From a virus: a stretch of 25,464 nt of DNA. The stretch is taken from IMG/VR virus record IMGVR_UViG_3300026097_000092, positions 1 to 25,464 of that record. One strand, written 5' to 3'. Shown piece after piece: positions 7,788 to 25,020 of this stretch (the stretch's first letter is position 1; each line of letters begins with the position of its first letter). The position numbers were made by a program, and so were the translations under genes. The notes beneath the pieces are model-generated. The model did no database searches and was not told where the DNA came from. It worked only from the letters and a program-made list of their open reading frames with translations.

Positions 7788-9155
7788 ATGAAGATATTGG
7801 GCGTGAGTGAAGGCTTCCATGATGCTGCTGTAGCATTAGTGGACAAAGGTGAAATTCTACATGCTAGCCATTCCGAACGTTACTATAAGGTCAAGAACTA
7901 CGACAAGGTGCATCCTGATCAATACTTGGATCACGATCACTATGCATACTATGAAAAGAACTGGTTAAAGAACACACGTCGTTGGCTATTTGGTCAGAGT
8001 AAAGTTCCTTACTATAAGTGTGACTGGTGCTTCGACACATGCAGTAAGAGCACGTGGTATCATCACGAGTCACACGCTGCTGCTGGCTTCTATACATCTC
8101 CATTCGATAAGGCAAACGTACTAGTAATTGATTCCATCGGTGAGTGGGACACGGTATCTGTGTGGGAAGCTTGGGTTGATCGCTACAATAAAAAAGTTCG
8201 GATGCGGAAGAAAAAAAGTTGGAAGTATCCGTACTCGCTTGGTCTTTTCTACAGCGCAGTAACACAGCGTGTGGGTCTTAAACCGAATGAGGATGAATAC
8301 ATTCTTATGGGTATGGCGGCGTATGGCGAACCTATCTATGACATGAGTGAACTGCTCTATCGTAATAATCACAGGGGCATTGGTAACTATCTACCCGGTG
8401 CACGCAATGAAGATCTTGCTGCGAGTGCGCAAGCTCTCTATGAGCGTGAGCTGCTCCGGATCATAGACCAGCACTGCACGCATCCCAATCTTGTGTTCAT
8501 GGGTGGATGTGCATTGAACTGTGCTGCTAACAGTAAGATCCGAGGTAAGAACATCTGGATTATGCCCAACCCAGGGGATGCTGGTTCAGCACTTGGCGCT
8601 GCAGCATTGGCATACGGTCACAAATTAAAATGGAAGGATCCTTATCTTGGCTATGACATTCAGAGGCCTGTCAATCCTAAAGAGATTGCTCAGTATATTG
8701 TTGATAATTCTTATTGCGGTGTTGCAAACGGCCGTGCAGAGTACGGTCCTCGTGCTCTTGGTAATCGTAGCCTTCTGGCTGACCCTCGAAGAGATATTAA
8801 GGACACCGTTAACCAAATTAAGCAGAGACAGCTCTTTCGACCCTTTGCACCTGCAATCTTGGAAGAATATGCTCACGAGTACTTCGAGGGACCAATGAAC
8901 GAGTACATGCAGTTTGTAGCACAAGCACGTCACAACTACGATTCGGTCACACACGTAGACGGAACTGCTCGCGTACAAGTTGTTAAGAGTGACTGCAGCT
9001 CTGTGATCCGACCAATCCTCGAAGAGTTCTACGAGTTAACCGGTGTTCCTATGTTGCTAAATACAAGTCTAAATATCAAAGGCATGCCAATGGTGAATGA
9101 CGAGAGCGATGCCGTACTATTCCAAAGCAAATATAAAGTCAAAGTATTCTATTAA
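7788..9155 (+). CDS. Carbamoyltransferase of the NodU/CmcH family
   Basis: Family members transfer a carbamoyl group from carbamoyl phosphate through a carbamoyl-adenylate onto hydroxyl groups of sugars or antibiotics. The Kae1-like ATP/metal domain has MKILGVSEGFHDAAVALV at the start, HHESHAAAGF (92-101) with metal-binding histidines, VLVIDSIGEWDT, and GGCALNCAANSKI (239-251). NPGDAGSALGAA (261-272) follows. The C-terminal transferase part has NGRAEYGPRALGNRSLL (314-330), FRPFAPAI and LLNTSLNIKGMP. At 455 residues it is shorter than typical NodU (about 570) because the N-terminal part is compact, yet all main motifs are present. It heads the accessory island. The acceptor is unknown; sugar, lipid-linked glycan and modified DNA base are all possible. 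Confidence 0.9.
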   Translation: MKILGVSEGFHDAAVALVDKGEILHASHSERYYKVKNYDKVHPDQYLDHDHYAYYEKNWLKNTRRWLFGQSKVPYYKCDWCFDTCSKSTWYHHESHAAAGFYTSPFDKANVLVIDSIGEWDTVSVWEAWVDRYNKKVRMRKKKSWKYPYSLGLFYSAVTQRVGLKPNEDEYILMGMAAYGEPIYDMSELLYRNNHRGIGNYLPGARNEDLAASAQALYERELLRIIDQHCTHPNLVFMGGCALNCAANSKIRGKNIWIMPNPGDAGSALGAAALAYGHKLKWKDPYLGYDIQRPVNPKEIAQYIVDNSYCGVANGRAEYGPRALGNRSLLADPRRDIKDTVNQIKQRQLFRPFAPAILEEYAHEYFEGPMNEYMQFVAQARHNYDSVTHVDGTARVQVVKSDCSSVIRPILEEFYELTGVPMLLNTSLNIKGMPMVNDESDAVLFQSKYKVKVFY

Positions 9156-10042
9156 TGGCACGACGTAAATTGCTAATCACAGGTGGATGTTCTTACACAG
9201 ATCCTAACTACCTTACGAACGATAAGAGCTTACCTCAAGAACGAGGCGCGTGGAAGATGTGGCCGGAGTATCTTGGAAATGCATTAGATCTAGAGGTGAT
9301 CAACACAGGCTACAGCGGTTCTTCTAATGAAACTATCTTTCACAATGTACTGGAGAAGATCTATCTTTACGGTGATAGGGTTGATACAGTCGCAGTTATG
9401 TGGACTGGGATGGATCGCCGCCGCATAATGTGTGGATACGATATCAATCCACTATCGGAAGTGAATATCGTAGCTGATTATAATCCTGCATATCCAGATG
9501 GAGCAGATACACCATTTGAATGGCTATCTCGTCTTGGAATGCACAATCTATCGTATAACTTCTTTACCAGCCAAGATTTCTGGAGGGTTCGCACCGGGTT
9601 TATAAAATACTCCATCGAAGATAGTCTTCGAAGCTATAACGCTCTTGCCGATGTGTGCGCAGCTAATGGTATAAAATTTGTGTTTATAAATGGGTTACTA
9701 CCGTTCGACTATCACTACCTATCACATTTTCAGAAAACCGGAATACTGAAATGTCCAGAAGGTGAAAGTGTAGAAACACATGAGGGTCAAGTACTAATGG
9801 GCTATGTGCAAAATGTTTGGTTCTCTAAGTTTGATAAGAAGCATAAATCCCACTTTATTGGTTGGCCGATATACGCCCCGCTCGGTGGCACGTATTTCGA
9901 TGAGATGAGAGAAAAGAATAAGAGGCTATTTCCTAAGAGCGATAAGTATAGGGTGTCAGAGGTAGATGCGCATCCCAACGCAGAAGCACAGGAAATCATC
10001 TCTAAAGTTATACTGGAAAGGTACAATAGGTTGTATGCTTGA
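9155..10042 (+). CDS. SGNH/GDSL-like hydrolase family protein, copy 1
   Basis: A 295-residue protein starting on the last base of the carbamoyltransferase stop. It matches the SGNH layout: GGCSYTD near the N-terminus (likely Ser13), VINTGYSGSSNE as the block II glycine region, WTGMDRR in the place of block III, and a C-terminal VDAHPNAEAQE with D271 and H273 as the Asp-His of the triad. SGNH enzymes remove or transfer acyl groups from sugars, lipids or glycans. A paralogue lies at 11871-12716; the two share GCSYTDPN, MWP, LEVIN-G-SG, YG-RV and the DxHPN end. No signal peptide, so it acts in the cytoplasm. Confidence 0.75.
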   Translation: MARRKLLITGGCSYTDPNYLTNDKSLPQERGAWKMWPEYLGNALDLEVINTGYSGSSNETIFHNVLEKIYLYGDRVDTVAVMWTGMDRRRIMCGYDINPLSEVNIVADYNPAYPDGADTPFEWLSRLGMHNLSYNFFTSQDFWRVRTGFIKYSIEDSLRSYNALADVCAANGIKFVFINGLLPFDYHYLSHFQKTGILKCPEGESVETHEGQVLMGYVQNVWFSKFDKKHKSHFIGWPIYAPLGGTYFDEMREKNKRLFPKSDKYRVSEVDAHPNAEAQEIISKVILERYNRLYA

Positions 10043-11242: not shown

Positions 11243-11874
11243 TCGAGCAGACAAAAAGAACACGGGTAGGTGGCACAGGACCTCGCCGTAATAAGTTAAA
11301 GACATTTTGCAAGATTGGTGAAGTATCCCCTCAGGTAGTTAGCGAACTTAACTACATCCTAGACACCCACTCACATAATGATATTGGTGGGGATAATTAT
11401 GGTATTAGTAAAAATTGTAATTACGAAGAGGTGTTTCACGTCGGATCAACCTATCGTCAAATTCTTTTACAAGAAAAAGCCCGTGGGGATGATCCGGATG
11501 TTGATGAGTATGCCTACACTGAATGGTCTAACAAGCATAAGTTAAGGTATACCCGTCCTGCTCTTAAAGAATTATTCGACGCTACCTATCGTTTTAGACT
11601 CAGTGAGATGAAAGATGGGCACGAGCTTAACTGGCATATCGATGCAGACACGAGTGTTATCTGTCGAGCACACATTGGCCTAAATAAAAATGATTCCGTA
11701 TTTGAATTCAAAGACCGGGAAGGCGTTAAAACCTTAAGAATTAATCCGGGTGAAGTATACTTCATTAACACCGGATGGACTCATAGAGTAGTAAGCGGGG
11801 ATATTACACGTCGAACCGCAATAATTGCATTTCATTTTGATAATTTAAGAAACAAGGATTTACTTCGGCTATGA
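11224..11874 (+). CDS. Fe(II)/2-oxoglutarate oxygenase, aspartyl/asparaginyl beta-hydroxylase-like
   Basis: A 216-residue protein. The C-terminal half has the double-stranded beta-helix signature: WHIDAD with iron ligands H138 and D140, then GEVYFINTGWTHRVV with H187, and RRTAIIAFHF with Arg196/197 for the 2-oxoglutarate carboxylate. RAHIGLN between them is the typical Asp/Asn hydroxylase strand. It overlaps the previous gene by 19 bases and the next by 4. Related enzymes hydroxylate protein side chains or lipids; the substrate here is unknown. AT-rich like its neighbours. Confidence 0.8.
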   Translation: MAEKCLIEQTKRTRVGGTGPRRNKLKTFCKIGEVSPQVVSELNYILDTHSHNDIGGDNYGISKNCNYEEVFHVGSTYRQILLQEKARGDDPDVDEYAYTEWSNKHKLRYTRPALKELFDATYRFRLSEMKDGHELNWHIDADTSVICRAHIGLNKNDSVFEFKDREGVKTLRINPGEVYFINTGWTHRVVSGDITRRTAIIAFHFDNLRNKDLLRL

Positions 11875-12716
11875 GTAAGGGTATTTTACTGGCAAGTGGC
11901 TGCTCTTATACCGATCCCAATTTCAAATCGCTAGATCCAGATGTAAAAACCTTTCAGTGGCCAATGTGGCCGCAGCACGTGGGAAAAAGCCTATCATTAG
12001 AGGTTATCAACTCAGGTCTATCCGGTAATGATAATTTAAGTATTCATAATAATATAGTCCGTGATTTATCTAAATATGGGAATAGGGTTAAATGCGTTTG
12101 TATTTTATGGAGCGGATTTGATAGATTTAGATTTATGCACACCAGTACTCTTCAGCTATTACATCAGATGGGAAGAGGCGTAATACCCGAATTTATGGCG
12201 CATTTAAATGATCCTAAGAATATGGTAACGGAAACGGGAGTCAGGGAATGGTTAAAAGCTCTCGCTACATCTGATTACTGGAATCCTAAAAATTTGATTA
12301 TGGGGAGTATTCTAGACAGTATAACCTATATGGTGTCAATCGCAGAGGTGTGTGAGACCAAAGGTATACCATACATTTTCTATCAGGGGGTTCAGCCAGT
12401 TAATTGGATTCTTCTAAATCATATACAGGAAACTATAGGCAAACCCCTTGTTAAAAAAGACGAAGTGTTAAAAGAATTTATAGCTGAGCCTTCATTTCGA
12501 TTATTCCAAAAATATAAAAAAAACATCGTGGGGTTTCCCCTTTTTCCCACTCTCGATGGGGAATGTTTTGATCATCTTCGCTGGAATAATACCGGGGGAA
12601 CATCGGATATGAGCATGAAGGTTTCGGCATTAGACTTCCATCCCAATGGGGAGGGCCAGGAAAAGTTAGCAGAAATATTCCTAGAAAAATATTATAAGGT
12701 TTACGGTAGGCCATAG
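11871..12716 (+). CDS. SGNH/GDSL-like hydrolase family protein, copy 2
   Basis: A 281-residue paralogue of the protein at 9155-10042. It keeps SGCSYTD (Ser12), VINSGLSGNDN, WSGFDRFRF and LDFHPNGEGQE (D255, H257), so the SGNH triad appears complete. It starts within the previous stop (ATGA). Base composition is noticeably AT-richer than copy 1, so the copies either diverged long ago or arrived separately. A phage-type promoter lies in its last codons. Confidence 0.74.
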   Translation: MSKGILLASGCSYTDPNFKSLDPDVKTFQWPMWPQHVGKSLSLEVINSGLSGNDNLSIHNNIVRDLSKYGNRVKCVCILWSGFDRFRFMHTSTLQLLHQMGRGVIPEFMAHLNDPKNMVTETGVREWLKALATSDYWNPKNLIMGSILDSITYMVSIAEVCETKGIPYIFYQGVQPVNWILLNHIQETIGKPLVKKDEVLKEFIAEPSFRLFQKYKKNIVGFPLFPTLDGECFDHLRWNNTGGTSDMSMKVSALDFHPNGEGQEKLAEIFLEKYYKVYGRP

Positions 12717-17136: not shown

Positions 17137-17161
17137 CCTAATTCATAGTTGTCTCCAACTG

Positions 17162-17189
17162 GCCCGGGCAAATGCTCGGGCTTTTTTTT
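17162..17189 (+). terminator. Intrinsic terminator closing the pstS-side region
   Basis: GCCCGGGC (17162-17169), loop AAAT, GCTCGGGC (17174-17181), 8 bp with one G-T pair, then eight T (17182-17189). Confidence 0.92.
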
Positions 17190-17190
17190 A

Positions 17191-17198
17191 TATAAATA
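17191..17198 (+). promoter_or_regulatory. T4-type late promoter of the late/structural module
   Basis: TATAAATA, one base past the terminator's T-run and 22 bases before the first late gene (17220). Exact match to the T4 late consensus. Confidence 0.72.
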
Positions 17199-17219: not shown

Positions 17220-18497
17220 ATGCTAAAATCTGTACGTGATATAAACCCTAAAAATCAGCGGGAGTTTAAATCCTATCTTAAAAGAACCCTGAGCGGCGTT
17301 AAGATGGGTGAATCTTCTCGTGGCGGATATCATGTACGTTTTGCGCTGGATCCTACTAAATTTGATTCCTACTTTAAAAAATATGATCTCGAGATAGTTG
17401 ATTATCCTGGTCCATCTCTTTCAGGTAAGTTTGAAACGCACGTGTTAATAGCAACAGCTGACCTTGGGTCTAATGTACCTTACGGAACTATGATTCCGTA
17501 TGTGAATAATTACATTGGTGCATCAAAGGCTGGAGCACTTCTTTTTAATAATAAAGATCTTAGTCCAGACAATCTAGGCTTTGCCGGTCAGACCGTTACT
17601 CATACATCTCTGATCCGCCAATTAAAAGATGTTTTATATAAAAGATACGATACTGAGATAGCAGATCAACTTATGGACCTTGCGCATGCAGCTTCAAAGG
17701 GCGACAACAACCCGTCTGTAAATGTTTCATTTTCTTCTAAGGATCTTGCTAAAGTGTCTGCAGATTACGGGGAACTATTAAGCGCTCTGTGGGCTATGAA
17801 AAAGCTGAACTTTAAACAGTCATTCTTTCCTACTGCTAGTAACGAGCCCTTGATTGACATTTACGGTATTCGCTTCGGTGTCCATTACCCCATATCTGTT
17901 AAGTCTGGTGGTGGCGGTAAGGTCACTATTCAGAACATTATAAATGCCATTGAAAACAGGGCAGACCGGGCATCTCAGGTCGATCTTAGAAAAGAACCCT
18001 CACTACAGATCTTTAAGATGGTGAATGAACTGCCTATGAAAGAGCAGATGATCCAGCTACATAAGTACCGCAACACTGCTGCTATCCGTAAACTCAGTGA
18101 GATCACCGGTATCCTGGTCGAGGATATGGATCTAGCGGCTATTAAAAAGTTCACAGATGATAATACAAACGATCAACTCATCGAGTTGCTAGATCCGTTC
18201 TGGAAAGTTTTAAAGATGAACCTAACAGAAGGCGTAAAGCGAGGACAAGATAAACTCCGCTTAATCGTCTCGCCGCTTGGTGAATCTATCTGGAAGGTCT
18301 TGAATGATGATAAGGAAATCAAAGAATCTCTGACACGGGTCGCAAGACAGGTAACTCTTATTCAGGTAAACGTTGACGTAAGAAAGACTGGAATGACATT
18401 TAAGAGTAACTATTTCAGAGACGCAGAATTCGAATTCGGCTGGGCTGGCTATGCAGCTGGCAACAAGCTAGGGTTCAAGATGAAGGTAAAACCATAA
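17220..18497 (+). CDS. Late protein of unknown function, possibly with a PD-(D/E)XK-like nuclease core
   Basis: A 425-residue protein, first in the late module behind TATAAATA, with GAGAG upstream. Around residues 183-235 it has YGELLSALWAM (E185), then FFPTASNEPLIDIYGIRFG (D213) and YPISVKSGGGGKVT (K228), which spaces like the E-D-xK core of restriction-endonuclease folds. The (E/Q)xK site reads SVK, so it may be inactive or the likeness may be chance. The rest is mixed alpha/beta without membrane segments. It is translationally linked to the next gene (TAATG). Family not recognised. Confidence 0.7.
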   Translation: MLKSVRDINPKNQREFKSYLKRTLSGVKMGESSRGGYHVRFALDPTKFDSYFKKYDLEIVDYPGPSLSGKFETHVLIATADLGSNVPYGTMIPYVNNYIGASKAGALLFNNKDLSPDNLGFAGQTVTHTSLIRQLKDVLYKRYDTEIADQLMDLAHAASKGDNNPSVNVSFSSKDLAKVSADYGELLSALWAMKKLNFKQSFFPTASNEPLIDIYGIRFGVHYPISVKSGGGGKVTIQNIINAIENRADRASQVDLRKEPSLQIFKMVNELPMKEQMIQLHKYRNTAAIRKLSEITGILVEDMDLAAIKKFTDDNTNDQLIELLDPFWKVLKMNLTEGVKRGQDKLRLIVSPLGESIWKVLNDDKEIKESLTRVARQVTLIQVNVDVRKTGMTFKSNYFRDAEFEFGWAGYAAGNKLGFKMKVKP

Positions 18498-19228
18498 TGG
18501 CGTACACAGGCTCAAAATATATCGAAGACGACTATCTCAGTATTGCACGGGGACACGTCAAAGATGCATCACACATCCATAAGTTTGGTGCGGTTCCTGC
18601 GATGAGTCAAAACCAAACGGGATCTGTATGGGATATAAATGATACGGAGTATCCTTGGGACGCATTCGACACCGCCGGCGTTTTAGCTATTCCGGCAGTA
18701 AACGCTTCTGACGACGGTATGGTAATTAGTGTGTTTGGATTAGATGATAATTTCGACCTTATTAATGAGGATTTTACCGTGTCTAGTTCTGGTACTACAA
18801 CAGGCACAGAGACATTCAAGAGAGTCTATAGGGCATTCGTAACAAACGGTGATACTAACGTTGGCGACATCAACATACAAAGAGGCGGTGTGACAGTAGC
18901 GAGAATCAGTGCTGGCCTAAGCCAAACGCTTATGGCAATCTACACTGTACCGAACGGCTACACGGGCTATCTACTAAAAGGTCAAATGTCATGCCAAGCA
19001 GGTGCAGATGCGACAGGAAATATGTTCGTAAGATATGCTGGTCAAACCGCATTCAGGGTCGGTCACTCGTTCGAAGTGTCTGGTAATGGTGGTGCTTACG
19101 AATACGATTTCCGTGTTCCCATACAGATACCATCGAAATCAGACATTGATGTAAGAGCAAGTGTAAGATCCAACAACGCAAGGATCTCTGCTGCATTTGA
19201 TGTGGTACTCTTTAAAGGTAAAAGATAA
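18497..19228 (+). CDS. Probable virion structural protein
   Basis: A 243-residue, Gly/Ser/Thr/Asn-rich, beta-predicted protein (GTTTGTETFKRVYRAFVTNGDTNVGDINIQRGG, YTVPNGYTGYLLKGQM, YEYDFRVPIQIPSKSDIDVRASVRS). The front half has HVKDASHIHKFGAVPAMSQNQTGSVWDINDTEYPWDA. This composition and pattern recur in marine T4-like phage virion proteins (as I recall), probably a capsid-decoration or tail-surface piece. It starts in the previous stop and its own stop overlaps the next start. Confidence 0.72.
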   Translation: MAYTGSKYIEDDYLSIARGHVKDASHIHKFGAVPAMSQNQTGSVWDINDTEYPWDAFDTAGVLAIPAVNASDDGMVISVFGLDDNFDLINEDFTVSSSGTTTGTETFKRVYRAFVTNGDTNVGDINIQRGGVTVARISAGLSQTLMAIYTVPNGYTGYLLKGQMSCQAGADATGNMFVRYAGQTAFRVGHSFEVSGNGGAYEYDFRVPIQIPSKSDIDVRASVRSNNARISAAFDVVLFKGKR

Positions 19229-20457
19229 TGGAAAAATTTAGCTCATACATAACCGAACAAAAAAACACCCACATGACCCACATCGAAGATAAGGTTATCT
19301 ACGGTGGGGTAAGAGGTACAAGAGAAGCTATCCTAGCACTACGGTCGCTGCGAGATATGCTGAAAGGAACCCACGATGGCAATGTCTCTGTTAAATGGGA
19401 TGGCGCTCCTGCTATTTTTGCTGGTACTGATCCGAGTGATGGTAAATTTTTCGTTGCCAAGAAAGGCATTTTCAACAAGAATCCTAAAGTCTATAAATCT
19501 GCAGCTGACGTCGATGCTGATACTTCTGGTGATCTTGCAGATAAGCTTAAACTGGCACTCAAGTACTTGCCAGAGCTGGGAATCAAGGGCGTGGTACAGG
19601 GCGACTTTCTCTTCGGTCCCGGAGATGTGTCCACAGACACCATAAAAGGAGAAAAATATGTTACCTTCCACCCCAATACAATTGTATATGCTATCCCTGC
19701 CGCTACACCTAGCGCTCGTGACGTTCTATCTTCAAAGATCGGCATTGTGTGGCACACCACTTACACTGGCTCGAGCTTCGAATCTATGCGCGCCTCGTAC
19801 GGTGTAGATGTAAGTAAGCTTAAGAAGAGCAAGAGTGTTTGGTCACAGGATGCTATGCTGCGTGACATGACCACGTTCACTATGTCGCAGAAAGACACCG
19901 ATGAGGTGAACGACTACCTCAGTCAGGCTGGTAAGATCTTTAACCAGATCAGTGGTTCAACCCTGCGCCAACTTGAAGCTAATACCGAGCTCAGCAGACT
20001 TATCGAAACGTACAACAATTCATTTGTACGTCAAGGCACTGTTATAACGAACACTACTGCACACGTCAACGGTCTAGTTAAGTGGATCTCTGACCGCTTC
20101 CAGAAAGAAGCAGACAAGCGTAAGACTGAAAAAGGCAAGAGTGCACAGTACGCAAAGCGTGACGAAGTACTTAAATTCTTTTCTAATCAGAATAAAAAAT
20201 CCCTGAAATTAATGTTCGATTTGCAGAAATTGATCGTTTTAGCGAAGTTAAAATTGATAAATATACTTAATAGATTATCAAAGACAAAACATTTTGTCAA
20301 GACTTCTAATGGATATAAGACGACAGGACCTGAAGGTTATGTAGCGATTGACAAACTTGGTGGTGATGCTGTAAAAATTGTTGACAGGATGGAATTCTCG
20401 TACAACAACTTCAGCAAAGATATATTAAAGGGATGGGATAAACCGGGAAGAAATTAA
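19228..20457 (+). CDS. DUF6267-like nucleotidyltransferase (DNA/RNA ligase-type core)
   Basis: A 409-residue protein. SVKWDGAPAIFAG (54-66) has the KxDG motif I of covalent nucleotidyltransferases (K56 would take the AMP). GVVQGDFLFGP (121-131) fits the next acidic motif, FHPNTIVYAIP the middle strand, and KIGIVWHTTYTG the motif IV/V region. The C-terminal part is helical and Lys-rich. The N-terminus MEKFSSYITEQK matches a tag shared with neighbouring late genes. It may seal nicks or cap/ligate RNA, or be packaged with the genome. The overall fold assignment rests on motifs only. Confidence 0.72.
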   Translation: MEKFSSYITEQKNTHMTHIEDKVIYGGVRGTREAILALRSLRDMLKGTHDGNVSVKWDGAPAIFAGTDPSDGKFFVAKKGIFNKNPKVYKSAADVDADTSGDLADKLKLALKYLPELGIKGVVQGDFLFGPGDVSTDTIKGEKYVTFHPNTIVYAIPAATPSARDVLSSKIGIVWHTTYTGSSFESMRASYGVDVSKLKKSKSVWSQDAMLRDMTTFTMSQKDTDEVNDYLSQAGKIFNQISGSTLRQLEANTELSRLIETYNNSFVRQGTVITNTTAHVNGLVKWISDRFQKEADKRKTEKGKSAQYAKRDEVLKFFSNQNKKSLKLMFDLQKLIVLAKLKLINILNRLSKTKHFVKTSNGYKTTGPEGYVAIDKLGGDAVKIVDRMEFSYNNFSKDILKGWDKPGRN

Positions 20458-20960
20458 TGTTAAGATTTAAAGACATGTATACTATTGAGTATCGTCCAGG
20501 CGAAGACGAGCTCATCAATTATAGAGCCTACCGCCGCAAACGCACTATTGGTGTCGGCGAAGGTGGACCGGTTGGAGAATCAACTGAATGGGTCTGCGGT
20601 CGGTGTAACTGCGATCCGTGCACATGTGAAAGCGTGGATGAAGCTCTATCAGTTGCCACACGCTTGAAAAAGGCGCGTGACCTTCGCCGTAATAAAGCAA
20701 AGATCGCACTCGGTCGCGCACGAGCAGCACGTCGCTTTGCATCACAAGATGTACTGAAGAAGAGAGCACGTAAGGCAGCTTACAAGACCTTCTACAACAA
20801 AATCACCAAAGATATACCCAAAGACAAACTTAGCCCACAACGTAAGGCTGAGATTGAGAAACGTTTGAAGTCACCCGCTTTTCAAGGGCGTATAGATAAG
20901 ATGGCCAGGAAGATGGTCAAAGATGTACGTAAAAAAGAAATGGAAAGAAAGCGCGGGTAA
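20457..20960 (+). CDS. Basic late protein with Cys cluster, unknown function
   Basis: A 167-residue protein. An N-terminal part ends in a small Cys cluster CGRCNCDPCTC (67-77), which may bind zinc. The remaining 90 residues are extremely basic and helical (KKARDLRRNKAKIALGRARAARRF, then KRARKAAYKTFYNKITKDIPKDKLSPQRKAEIEKRL). The charge suits DNA binding inside the head. It begins MLRFKDMY, a degenerate form of the neighbours' N-terminal tag. TAATG joins it to both neighbours. Confidence 0.72.
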   Translation: MLRFKDMYTIEYRPGEDELINYRAYRRKRTIGVGEGGPVGESTEWVCGRCNCDPCTCESVDEALSVATRLKKARDLRRNKAKIALGRARAARRFASQDVLKKRARKAAYKTFYNKITKDIPKDKLSPQRKAEIEKRLKSPAFQGRIDKMARKMVKDVRKKEMERKRG

Positions 20961-22525
20961 TGATAGGCTCATTTAAGCAGTACTTAGTTGAAGAAGAAAA
21001 GACGGTATTCTTTTCCTTTGGGAGAATGAATCCACCGACTATTGGTCATGAGAAGCTGCTGGATAAGTTAGCCTCTACAGCCGGGCGCAATCCATACCGG
21101 ATGTATCTCTCACAGTCGCAAGATTCTAAAAAGAATCCCTTAGAATACAAAGACAAGATTAAAGCAGCTCGTAAGATGTTCCCGCGGCATGCTCGGAACA
21201 TTATGATGACGAAAGACGTCAAGACTGTTTTCGATATTGCCGTTAAGTTGTACAGTGAGGGTTTCCGTAAGGTAGTCATGGTTGTAGGTTCCGATCGGGT
21301 GCGAGAGTTTGATGTACTACTGGGCAAGTACAATGGCGAGAAAGCACGCCACGGATTCTACAACTTTGCTGATATTAAAGTAGTTTCCGCAGGCGACCGT
21401 GATCCGGATGCAGATGGCGCTACTGGTATGAGCGCATCTAAAATGCGTGCAGCTGCTTCTGACAATGACTTTACTACATTTGCACAAGGTCTACCCAAAG
21501 CATTTTCAAACGCAGACTCGAAGGCGCTCTTCAATGCTGTGCGCAAGGGCATGGGACTAAAAGAAGCTCGTGACTTCCGTAACCACGTACAGCTGGATCC
21601 TATCTCAGAAGTACGTGAGTCTTACATAGACGGTAAGCTCTACGAGGTCGGTGATGATGTGGTTATCAAAGAAAACGGCGAGATCGGTAAGGTCAAAGAG
21701 CTTGGCCCCAACTACGTTATCATTGAGTCCAAATCCAATCGTTACCGCAAGTGGCTGGATGCAGTAGAGAAGGTTGAGCAGAAGTACCCAGAGTACACTG
21801 TTGCACCATTCTCCGCCACACTCAACGAAGACAACACGAAAAGCATGTATGCGGATAAGCCTGACTGGGGCACGGATGCATCCACTCGTAAGGCCAAGAA
21901 GAAAACCCCAGGTGAGACCACCGAGGAAGGCACGGATAATCCCAATATCTGGGACAACATCCGCAAACGCCGGGCAGCAGGATTACCTCCGCGTAAGCCT
22001 GGTGAAAAAGGCTATCCCAAGACACTTGACCTACCGGAGAACGACGGACCTTGCTGGCCTGGGTATCGTCAGGTTGGTACCAAGATGAAGAACGGCAAAC
22101 AGGTACCCAACTGTGTACCAGAGTCTACTGTGAACGAAAAGATCCAGGTAGCACAAGATCCCGACATCGATGATCGCAAGGGTTCACAGCCTGCCACCTT
22201 CCAGAAAGGCATTAAGTCCAAGTCCACGAAGGCTGCACGTGACGCACACTTCAAGAAAATGAGCAAGCGTGACGACCACGGTAATCCAGACCTATATAAA
22301 GATGCACCAGGTGATAAGGCAGCCCGTGCAAAGGGAACTAAACCGTCACAGTACACAAAACGCTTCAAAGCTATGTACGGTGAACAAGTGGATCCAGTCG
22401 ACACCGCCAAACAGCGTATAGACAGAGAAAAGAAAGCCGATGCCCGCCGTCACGATCGTATGATGGACAGAGCACGCACCAGAGCAACAACCTTAAAAAA
22501 TAAAGAGACAAAGCCCAATGGATAA
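20960..22525 (+). CDS. Cytidylyltransferase-like protein with C-terminal extensions
   Basis: A 521-residue multidomain protein. After the tag MIGSFKQYLVEEEK comes an HxGH-type nucleotidyltransferase domain (about 14-180): FFSFGRMNPPTIGHEKLLDKL (TIGH at 27-30), VVMVVGSDR, and MSASKMRAA (157-165, the S-x-S-K-M-R motif). Next is a small SH3/KOW-like segment (about 228-265, VGDDVVIKENGEIGKVKELGPNYVIIE). A low-complexity stretch, a CWPGYRQVGTKMKNGKQVP-NC segment (365-384) and a basic tail finish it. The enzyme part could adenylate NMN or activate a sugar/lipid phosphate. It overlaps the next gene by 8 bases. Confidence 0.75.
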   Translation: MIGSFKQYLVEEEKTVFFSFGRMNPPTIGHEKLLDKLASTAGRNPYRMYLSQSQDSKKNPLEYKDKIKAARKMFPRHARNIMMTKDVKTVFDIAVKLYSEGFRKVVMVVGSDRVREFDVLLGKYNGEKARHGFYNFADIKVVSAGDRDPDADGATGMSASKMRAAASDNDFTTFAQGLPKAFSNADSKALFNAVRKGMGLKEARDFRNHVQLDPISEVRESYIDGKLYEVGDDVVIKENGEIGKVKELGPNYVIIESKSNRYRKWLDAVEKVEQKYPEYTVAPFSATLNEDNTKSMYADKPDWGTDASTRKAKKKTPGETTEEGTDNPNIWDNIRKRRAAGLPPRKPGEKGYPKTLDLPENDGPCWPGYRQVGTKMKNGKQVPNCVPESTVNEKIQVAQDPDIDDRKGSQPATFQKGIKSKSTKAARDAHFKKMSKRDDHGNPDLYKDAPGDKAARAKGTKPSQYTKRFKAMYGEQVDPVDTAKQRIDREKKADARRHDRMMDRARTRATTLKNKETKPNG

Positions 22526-23606
22526 TTTTAAAAGTTACCTAGCAGAAAGCGCCGATGCGGCACTAAAGAAGAAAGCTGATAAGTCGGGCTTTTCACTCAG
22601 TATCCTCAAGCAAGTTTATAAGCGTGGCGTTGCAGCTTGGAAGGTTGGTCATAAGCCAGGCACTACTCCACAGCAATGGGGCATGGCACGGGTCAATTCA
22701 TTTATTACCGGTGGTCGTACAAGAGTAAAAGGCGATCCCGATCTCTGGGCCAAACAGAAGGGTAAGATCCGTAAACCCAAAAAGGTTGAAGAAGAAGCAG
22801 AACAGATTGACGAGATCTCGACCGATATGAAGAACCGCTACATGAACAGAGCCTCACAAGCTGCGGTATCTGCTACTATGGCTGGTAAGTATACTAAAGG
22901 CAAAGAGAAAGAAAAGTTCGATCGCATTGCTAAAAACAGAAAAGCTGGTATTAAAAAAATCGTAGGTGAAGAAGACGTAAGCGAAAGAACCCTTACCCCC
23001 GCAGAGAAAAAGAAGCGTGAAGAGATTGCCAAGGCAATGGAGCGTGACAATCCAGGTATGGATATGGGTAAGAAAATGGCGATTGCTACTGCAACAGCAA
23101 AGAAGGTTGCTGAAGAAAAAGATCCTAACGAGTATGATCGTGAAGGCGAGATGATGAAGGGTCAGCTTCGTCAGATCTGTTCTGCTAACGAAAAGCTTAT
23201 GAAGATGGTGGGCGACAACGACAATCTTCCAGAGTGGGTACAGAACAAAGTCACAAAGGCCACAGACTACATCCGTTCAGTGAGAGACTATCTTGAATCA
23301 GAGAACGGCAAAGACGACATGAGTGAAGCTAAAGTAGATGAGATCTCGCTTGACATGCTCACAAAGAAAGTCTCTAACACCAATATGGGTAATGTGCGCA
23401 AGGCGATGAAGACTGACAAAGTCAAAACTGACTTAGCTATGATGAAGAAGAAGCTGGACAACCACAAAGGCATGAAGCCCATCAAAGCACAGACAGAAGA
23501 TGTTCAGTCAGCCGATAAGAAACCAGAAAAATACGTAAAGCCTGACGGTAAAGTAGGTATTCGTATGGTTCGAACAGATAAACAGGTGGTTAAAAAAGAT
23601 GCTTAA
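22518..23606 (+). CDS. DUF5824-like late protein
   Basis: A 362-residue protein starting with the tag MDNFKSYLAESA. Residues about 22-75 (SGFSLSILKQVYKRGVAAWKVGHKPGTTPQQWGMARVNSFITGG) match the DUF5824 pattern as I know it from many marine phages. The rest is highly charged, Lys/Glu-rich and helical with repeated basic patches (MKNRYMNRASQAAV, AEKKKREEIAKAMERDNPGMDMGKKMAIATATAKKV). The strong charge suggests a nucleic-acid or head-internal role. Overlaps the genes on both sides by 8 bases. Confidence 0.75.
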   Translation: MDNFKSYLAESADAALKKKADKSGFSLSILKQVYKRGVAAWKVGHKPGTTPQQWGMARVNSFITGGRTRVKGDPDLWAKQKGKIRKPKKVEEEAEQIDEISTDMKNRYMNRASQAAVSATMAGKYTKGKEKEKFDRIAKNRKAGIKKIVGEEDVSERTLTPAEKKKREEIAKAMERDNPGMDMGKKMAIATATAKKVAEEKDPNEYDREGEMMKGQLRQICSANEKLMKMVGDNDNLPEWVQNKVTKATDYIRSVRDYLESENGKDDMSEAKVDEISLDMLTKKVSNTNMGNVRKAMKTDKVKTDLAMMKKKLDNHKGMKPIKAQTEDVQSADKKPEKYVKPDGKVGIRMVRTDKQVVKKDA

Positions 23607-23907
23607 GTTCAAGGCATTCTGTGAAGAAAAAGATCCGCGCATCAAAGCAGCTGGGGTAAAAGGCTATAACAAGCCCAAGCGTACCCCTGGCCACCCTACT
23701 AAGTCACACATTGTTGTTGCCAAAGATGGCGATAAGGTCAAGACTATCAGATTCGGTCAAGCAGGTGTAACCACCGCTGGCGCACCGAAGAAGGGCGAGA
23801 GCGATCGCCAGAAAGCACGTCGCAAGTCGTTCAAAGCACGTCACGCTAAGAACATTGCAAAAGGTAAAATGTCTGCTGCTTATTGGGCAGACAAAGTAAA
23901 GTGGTAG
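23599..23907 (+). CDS. DUF6321-like small basic protein
   Basis: A 102-residue basic protein. RIKAAGVKGYNKPKRTPGHPTKSHIVVAKDGDKVKTIRFGQAGVTTAG is followed by KARRKSFKARHAKNIAKGKMSAAYWADKVKW, a pattern I associate with DUF6321. It starts MLKFKAFCEEKD, a loose version of the shared N-terminal tag. It overlaps the preceding gene by 8 bases. Probably a packaged or DNA-binding late protein; no function known. Confidence 0.75.
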   Translation: MLKFKAFCEEKDPRIKAAGVKGYNKPKRTPGHPTKSHIVVAKDGDKVKTIRFGQAGVTTAGAPKKGESDRQKARRKSFKARHAKNIAKGKMSAAYWADKVKW

Positions 23908-24195: not shown

Positions 24196-25020
24196 ATGAA
24201 AATCGAAGACATTAAAAAGATGGCGCAGGCTTGGAACTCGGTTCAAGAAGCGTCCCACGGTAAGAAAGAAGCAACCAATGAAGCTAAGCGCAAAGGCGCA
24301 CCTAAGATGACTGGTGATTCTATTGCTATTCAACGTGCAAAAGATGCAGAGCTCAATAAAGCTTTGGGTCGTACTAAGACTGGGCGCAAAAAGCCAGCAC
24401 GTACAATGACTTCTACACAACGTTCGTTGGCTTCACTGCGTAACGAAGCTATGGATGCTGTTGATAAGGGTGAGCTAAAGGGTAAGCACAAAGACCGCAA
24501 AGACAAAGACATCAACAACGACGGCAAGGTAGATTCAACAGACAAGTACCTGCACAAGCGTCGTAAAGCAGTTTCTAAAGCCATCGGCAAAGACACTGAG
24601 ACCGAAGTACAAACCCAAGAGGGTAAACTGCCACCTGCTCTTCAAGCTTACATGGATAAGAAAAAAGGCAAGAAGTCTGACGATAAACGTATGGGCACAA
24701 TTACAGTAACCAGCGATGAAGACCGCAAAAAACGTGCGGCAGCATTTCGTGCGAAACAGGCAGGAAAAGCAAAGACAGAAAAAGTAGAAGAAGCAGCAAC
24801 TGCTACTCACAAGCCTAACAATGGTTCACCAGCTGGTGAAGGTCTTTCGCCTTCTGCAAAGAAAGAACTGGCACGCACTACTCCTATGCCGGACGCAGTA
24901 AATGAACCAGTAGTAGATAAGAAGACGTTCGATGCTATTCGTGCATCTGGTAAGAAAGCGCCTATGCGTCACAATGATAATGCCCAAGGCGATAAAACCC
25001 CACCAAAAACAGGGAAATAA
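24196..25020 (+). CDS. Charged late protein with a dockerin/EF-hand-like calcium loop
   Basis: A 274-residue Lys/Glu-rich, mostly disordered or helical protein. Residues 105-116 read DINNDGKVDSTD, a calcium loop of the EF-hand/dockerin kind (D105, N107, D109, G110, D113, D116), in the context DRKDKDINNDGKVDSTDKYLHKRRKA. AAGGAAAG upstream. Similar loops occur in late proteins of marine T4-like phages. It could be a prohead-core or other internal protein; not assigned. Confidence 0.7.
   Translation: MKIEDIKKMAQAWNSVQEASHGKKEATNEAKRKGAPKMTGDSIAIQRAKDAELNKALGRTKTGRKKPARTMTSTQRSLASLRNEAMDAVDKGELKGKHKDRKDKDINNDGKVDSTDKYLHKRRKAVSKAIGKDTETEVQTQEGKLPPALQAYMDKKKGKKSDDKRMGTITVTSDEDRKKRAAAFRAKQAGKAKTEKVEEAATATHKPNNGSPAGEGLSPSAKKELARTTPMPDAVNEPVVDKKTFDAIRASGKKAPMRHNDNAQGDKTPPKTGK

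Follow-up and report, generated by a model that had tools for sequence, protein, structure and literature searches.

Why should several unrelated proteins, encoded one behind the other in a phage genome, begin with nearly the same ten residues? This question is raised by the IMG/VR virus record IMGVR_UViG_3300026097_000092, a fragment of 25,464 bases without head genes which was analyzed over its whole length (hereafter the window). The phage is marine and T4-like; judged by the DUF6267 and NMNAT-like proteins, its closest described relatives are Phage C48C1, Methylophilales phage Melnitz, Stenotrophomonas phage DLP6, and Pelagibacter phage HTVC008M, and a search of known phages with the window at the DNA level gave no match. 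A preliminary description of the window had listed five late proteins with a common front peptide, F-x-x-[YF]-[LI]-x-E, and had likened this peptide to the prohead targeting sequence of T4. In our view the peptide is very probably a T4-type capsid-targeting and cleavage signal for injected enzymes.

The five N-termini are present on the plus strand and the shared front peptide is real; three of them fit the pattern exactly and the other two partially. The first exact tag, MEKFSSYITE (19228..19257), has F4, Y7, I8, and E10 at the four positions tested in the T4 internal protein IPIII, with a predicted cut after E10. It heads a DUF6267 protein (19228..20457; PF19782, E 7e-106, match to residues 13–396), whose domain starts at residue 13, immediately behind the tag, and in a medium-quality model of this protein the tag region has a predicted local distance difference test score below 50. 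The second, MIGSFKQYLVE (20960..20992), is offset by one residue and is conserved in orthologues, with a predicted cut after E11; it belongs to an NMNAT/cytidylyltransferase-like enzyme with a basic C-terminal extension (20960..22525; phrog_3041, E 6e-72; PF01467 at E 1.9e-4, which is above the cut-off). The third, MDNFKSYLAE (22518..22547), stands again in the T4 register, is matched in orthologues and has a predicted cut after E10; it begins a basic DUF5824 protein of 362 residues (22518..23606; isoelectric point (pI) 9.7; PF19141, E 4e-14). These three proteins are not homologous to each other, and a shared start through plain homology is ruled out, as three different families are concerned and the Pfam DUF6267 domain begins past the tag.

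The two weaker forms are found on small basic proteins. MLRFKDMY (20457..20480) starts an open reading frame for a protein of 167 residues and pI 10.3 (20457..20960); this N-terminus, MLRFKDMYTIEY, comprises the F4 targeting half alone and lacks an [LI]xE where one would be expected, and its positional counterpart in C48C1, CDS0088, begins with MLSFKQFVSE. In MLKFKAFCEE (23599..23628) F4, F7, and E10 are present and position 8 is occupied by C; relatives of this 102-residue protein (23599..23907; pI 10.5; phrog_7595, E 4e-42) carry full tags such as MIKFKEFLEE. The range first proposed for the tagged genes, 19228–23640, cuts the last gene, because the reading frame at 23599 extends to 23907.

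The proposed likeness to T4 agrees residue by residue with published mutagenesis. In T4 IPIII (MKTYQEFIAEA) residues 4 and 7 control targeting and residues 8 and 10 processing, and in T4 this tag alone was shown to carry a foreign protein into the head (PMC9026906). The critical residues 4, 7, 8, and 10 are exactly placed in two of the window tags and shifted by one in the third, and one signal is again attached to non-homologous proteins, namely to three families in the window and to 19 families when the sequences of related phages are compared after removal of the tag. The assertion that T4 internal proteins start with MKTYQEFIAEA is right for IPII and IPIII and wrong for IPI: its N-terminus, MKTFKEFTSTTTPVSTITE, has the F4/F7 half and an ITE site further on, which is a split-tag precedent for the form at 20457. 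The same T4 review suggested that the tag may be a general loading route for proteins in T4-like phages (PMC9026906).

How often would such a peptide arise by chance? In ten related genomes the exact pattern has a frequency of 3.1e-4 per residue within proteins. For the window, with its 105 candidate start codons, this predicts about 0.03 matches, and three were found; the estimate is biased, as the pattern was itself derived from these sequences. Unbiased support comes from orthologues, from other genomes, and from virion proteins of other phages. Beyond the window, in ten genomes of marine and freshwater T4-like phages, we counted 32 exact matches among 4456 candidate gene starts and 4 among 14322 internal start codons, an approximately 26-fold excess (odds ratio 26) by which chance as the origin of the tag is ruled out. 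The counts include homologous families, and as these recur the matches are not independent. Clustering of the sequences after removal of the tag gave the 19 families with an exact-pattern member, some of which are probably chance matches. A scan with a broader pattern recovers T4 IPII and IPIII.

Among environmental relatives this broader pattern was seen in 49 of 51 N-termini of the NMNAT family, in 40 of 57 of the DUF6267 family, in 25 of 43 distinct N-termini of DUF5824 proteins, and in 5 of 13 distinct N-termini of the family at 23599. A full match occurs in one of 50 orthologues of the protein at 20457, in which F-K-[DH]-[FYM] recurs. The untagged neighbour families gave 0/23 (phrog_8198 protein) and 0/2 distinct N-termini. 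In 48 distinct NMNAT orthologue segments the four pattern positions are occupied by F (100%), F or Y (99%), L (100%), and E (100%), and the x positions are variable; in 30 DUF6267 orthologues E10 never varies, and F4 and I8 are each kept in at least 90%.

Carriage into the head is supported most strongly by the detection of tagged orthologues in purified virions of related phages. NMNAT has been reported in the particles of S-SM1 (as T4-GC190; PMC3037559), S-SZBM1 (PMC9146016), S-SCSM1 (PMC9602691), and S-CREM2 (PMC10665884), and in all four proteomes the enzyme is tagged, with the N-termini MKKFSAFLNEA, MRFRQFIIEA, MKSFLQFLKEA, and MKNFSSFLTEA, respectively. The particles of S-CREM2 further contain a SAM lyase (PF23780), which begins with MKDFDSFLEE, a kinase, which begins with MKRFDAFLTEE, and a Cas9-like nuclease with an internal copy, RFASFMAEA, about 18 residues in (PMC10665884); the copy is similarly placed in S-H34 and S-CRM01. 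The kinase of S-CRM01, a virion protein according to work cited in PMC10665884, starts with MISFDQFLSE. Of the 219 proteins of S-CREM2 three have the exact pattern, and all three are among the 52 listed from its virions; when S-CREM2 and S-SZBM1 are pooled the exact pattern is present in 4 of 82 virion proteins versus 2 of 355 other proteins (p = 0.013). The untagged DUF6267 proteins S-CREM2 gp87 and S-SZBM1_141 are absent from the published virion lists, as a head signal residing in the tag predicts.

Processing would need a protease of the gp21 type. As the window is a fragment, gp21, gp22, and the major capsid protein were aligned from the records of relatives. A gp21 homologue, the finding of which had been named as a check of the prediction, is present in 9 of 13 of these records, including all of at least 114 kb; no match was obtained in the 111-kb record G007 and in three shorter fragments. 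The protease motifs around His and Ser, GELxHP and GVS[ST]RGxGS, are conserved in the relatives. In most of their major capsid proteins an [LI]xE site is aligned with the T4 gp23 site FLTE/A (the slash marks the cut), and in the gp22 proteins [LI]xE occurs about two- to threefold over the expected count. From the capsid sites together with the gp22 excess we conclude, indirectly, that the [LI]xE specificity of the protease is probably conserved in these relatives.

Several observations weigh against a head signal of this kind. The virion detections concern orthologues in other phages, none of them from the phage of the window, the p-value of the proteome comparison is modest (p = 0.013), and the genome-wide counts take in homologous families. 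Two tagged S-SZBM1 proteins, 191 and 192, were undetected in virions, in a survey which found just 30 proteins. In S-SCSM1 several untagged virion proteins adjoin NMNAT; the tag is therefore not the sole entry route. HTVC008M lacks an exact match, position 7 is H, S, or T in some of the DUF6267 orthologues, and in record G003 the capsid cleavage site is less clear (LQE/I). Finally, plain N-terminal trimming would not explain the internal copy of the Cas9-like proteins, about 18 residues in.

Could the tag be a head signal without serving injection? The alternative which survives best, unlikely as we judge it, is that the peptide directs its carriers to the prohead core and plays little role in injection, the tagged proteins being assembly factors or scaffold partners which are mostly left behind or degraded. 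In T4 the internal core proteins gp67 and gp68 are for the most part degraded or removed (PMC9026906), and several tagged proteins, being small and basic, could likewise be parts of the core; NMNAT, SAM lyase, and kinase, however, have no evident assembly role and are nevertheless found in mature particles. Slightly less credible still is that the detection of NMNAT and kinases in virions reflects contamination by abundant late proteins, which would make the link between tag and virion spurious. The authors of the S-CREM2 (PMC10665884) and S-SCSM1 (PMC9602691) proteomes raised contamination themselves, and a gene labelled translational repressor is likewise marked as a virion protein in S-SCSM1; on the other hand the same tagged enzyme appears in four different phages, and the virion enzymes have a T4-type head signal in common. 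That the shared start is just an ordinary amphipathic helix, or reflects a bias tied to translation, and resembles the T4 tag by coincidence we consider most improbable: the motif is short, and residues 2–11 are helical, at low confidence, in an NMNAT model too poor for a fold search, but in NMNAT exactly the four T4-critical positions are near-invariant, the untagged neighbour families lack the motif, gene starts are 26-fold enriched, and the motif is tied to virion enzymes.

We thus prefer the reading of the peptide as a capsid-targeting and cleavage signal, whose parts deserve different degrees of confidence: targeting to the head is highly likely and the part of which we are most sure, trimming is likely, and injection is also likely, to a somewhat lesser degree. 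We infer that the tagged proteins bind to the core and act in the host, in the following way. During prohead assembly the protein would attach to the gp22 core through its aromatic residues 4 and 7; once the shell is closed, a cut by the gp21 protease behind [LI]-x-E would release the protein within the head; the freed protein would remain among the packaged DNA and exit with it at infection. The tag would then be a movable module on enzymes (NMNAT and DUF6267, and in relatives SAM lyase and protein kinase) and on small basic proteins, and its cargo would act in the cell ahead of any phage gene expression. Going by predicted functions, such cargo could form an early kit, in which the NMNAT-like enzyme could restore nicotinamide adenine dinucleotide (NAD), the SAM lyase blunt restriction, and the kinases act on host proteins. 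A bolder version, for and against which the case seems to us evenly balanced, is a general delivery code of marine and freshwater T4-like phages: any protein with the ten-residue tag would be loaded, cut free, and injected, so that these enzymes and Cas9-like nucleases would be delivered as anti-defence enzymes at time zero. If this is true, injected effectors could be listed from sequence alone.

The tagged genes are part of a densely packed plus-strand gene string which begins at 17220 and takes up the remainder of the record. The upstream operon ends with an intrinsic terminator (17161..17182, plus strand; 9-pair stem, T8 tail), which is followed by an exact match to the T4-late-type promoter, TATAAATA (17191..17198, plus strand), 22 bases upstream of the first gene. 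The motif also stands directly upstream of the corresponding operon in C48C1 and in records G006, G005, and G003. TATAAAT by itself is not enriched within the window, and the assignment as a late promoter is based on position and on this recurrence in relatives. The first gene of the string codes for an untagged protein of 425 residues (17220..18497, plus strand), for which Pfam and PHROG searches gave no match. It is followed by an untagged phrog_8198 protein (18497..19228, plus strand), which served as untagged control and is a homologue of S-CREM2 gp176 (33% identity, E 2e-29), itself untagged and yet in the S-CREM2 virion proteome.

Regarding the enzymes of the string, the NMNAT-like protein has the active-site motifs GRMNPPTIGH and MSASKMR of the nucleotidyltransferase family, and its C-terminal module is common to the virion-detected S-CREM2 gp160 and S-SZBM1_139. 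The NAD-reconstitution enzyme Namat was rejected as its nearest relative; Namat is described as analogous to Nampt, not to NMNAT. A ligase function of DUF6267, to which the invariant KWDGAP had pointed, was not supported, with no notable PDB sequence match and no fold match at E < 0.001 for the medium-quality model. Further downstream a basic protein (24196–25020) begins with MKIEDIKKMAQAW; HTVC008M gp132 and Melnitz 20 begin with MTRYTKTMAEAY and MTRYNKTMSEAL, respectively, and the virion protein S-SCSM1_89 is loosely alike at its start. These starts are possibly a second head signal. Elsewhere in the window two proteins (9155–10042 and 11871–12716) are alike near their N-termini (GGCSYTDPN and SGCSYTDPN) and gave no Pfam match; their cluster also has a carbamoyltransferase, a desaturase, and a UDP-glucose dehydrogenase.

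Some further tagged proteins were noticed outside the window. The annotated start of C48C1 CDS0089 (L003:13448-14857) is too late, and a likely GTG start at position 63448 of the record restores the tag MIKNFSQYLLEEE. In S-SZBM1 the small adjoining proteins 191 and 192 (L137:23512-24326, minus strand) have the perfect tags MKSFKSFLSES and MKTFKQYITEA. A tagged protein of record G005 (G005:C1:109392-110264; MQKFTSFLTEQ) contains the P-loop motif GGAGSGKG, which suggests a further packaged enzyme. The Cas9-like proteins have a common SRWxxWxxG leader followed by the internal tag copy; the leader is found in the virion-detected S-CREM2 gp12 (L134:7704-10313, minus strand), in S-H34 gp53 (L203:10687-13620), and in S-CRM01 g128 (L202:6702-7253, minus strand), which is a short relative of the N-terminal part.

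Likenesses to capsid proteins were also seen. T4 gene 61.1 (54 residues; L140:18966-19130, minus strand) begins with a full tag, MKTFKEFIKED, and its product aligns without gaps to 37 residues of gp23 spanning the gp23 cleavage site (score reached in 0 of 2000 shuffles); 61.1 is possibly an overlooked T4 head protein. Several small proteins, two of them virion-detected, carry a copy of the segment which directly follows the cleavage site in the major capsid protein: S-CREM2 gp160 (L007:28342-29235), S-SCSM1_97 (L208:8522-8707), S-SM1_197 (L204:42806-43354), and S-CRM01 g121 (L202:3133-3327, minus strand). For gp160, GATGFTGAAAPEGPVAGYDPLM, compared with the capsid segment GADGFTGAAAPGGPNAGFDPVM, the score was again reached by none of 2000 shuffles. 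Such copies may mimic or occupy the site of the capsid N-arm.

The principle of targeting is already known from T4. As far as the open literature searched shows, it is new that the tag extends to T4-like phages of marine and fresh waters, that enzymes carry it, and that it matches the virion proteomes: a search of open full texts for capsid-targeting sequences together with cyanophages, subscription journals being outside its scope, returned the T4 review only, and the link between tag and cyanophages therefore appears to be unpublished there. NMNAT-like enzymes and kinases have turned up repeatedly in cyanophage proteomes, whose authors were undecided between cargo and contamination; now that a T4-type head signal is seen on just these proteins, the question becomes directly testable. 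The tag also offers a sequence rule to predict which proteins are injected by phages of this abundant marine group, and the tagged cargo suggests the nature of the first acts of infection.

Compared with known systems, the tag is closest to the capsid-targeting sequence of T4 IPI, IPII, IPIII, and Alt. Common to both are a peptide of about ten N-terminal residues with aromatic positions 4 and 7, [LI] at 8 and E at 10, a gp21 protease and a gp22 core (here in relatives), basic cargo, and late expression, as implied by the promoter. Whereas the T4 cargo consists of small internal proteins, the cargo here adds NMNAT, DUF6267, SAM lyase, and kinase; the hosts are marine and freshwater bacteria, the tag is at times shifted or internal, and cleavage is predicted from the sequence. 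The ejection proteins of SPN3US and other giant phages are alike in being packed into the head and ejected with the genome and in the cleavage of head proteins by a prohead protease, as described in the part of PMC10052503 consulted; this likeness is one of description, and the tag here is a T4-type N-terminal [LI]xE. DarA and Hdf of P1 are head-associated and act against host defence according to the consulted part of PMC12810830, a functional parallel by description only. With the virion NMNAT (T4-GC190) and kinases of the cyanophage proteomes, finally, there is a direct tie, the NMNAT there being homologous to the gene of the window: in the parts consulted those papers give no packaging signal and leave contamination open, whereas the tag described here would supply a mechanism.

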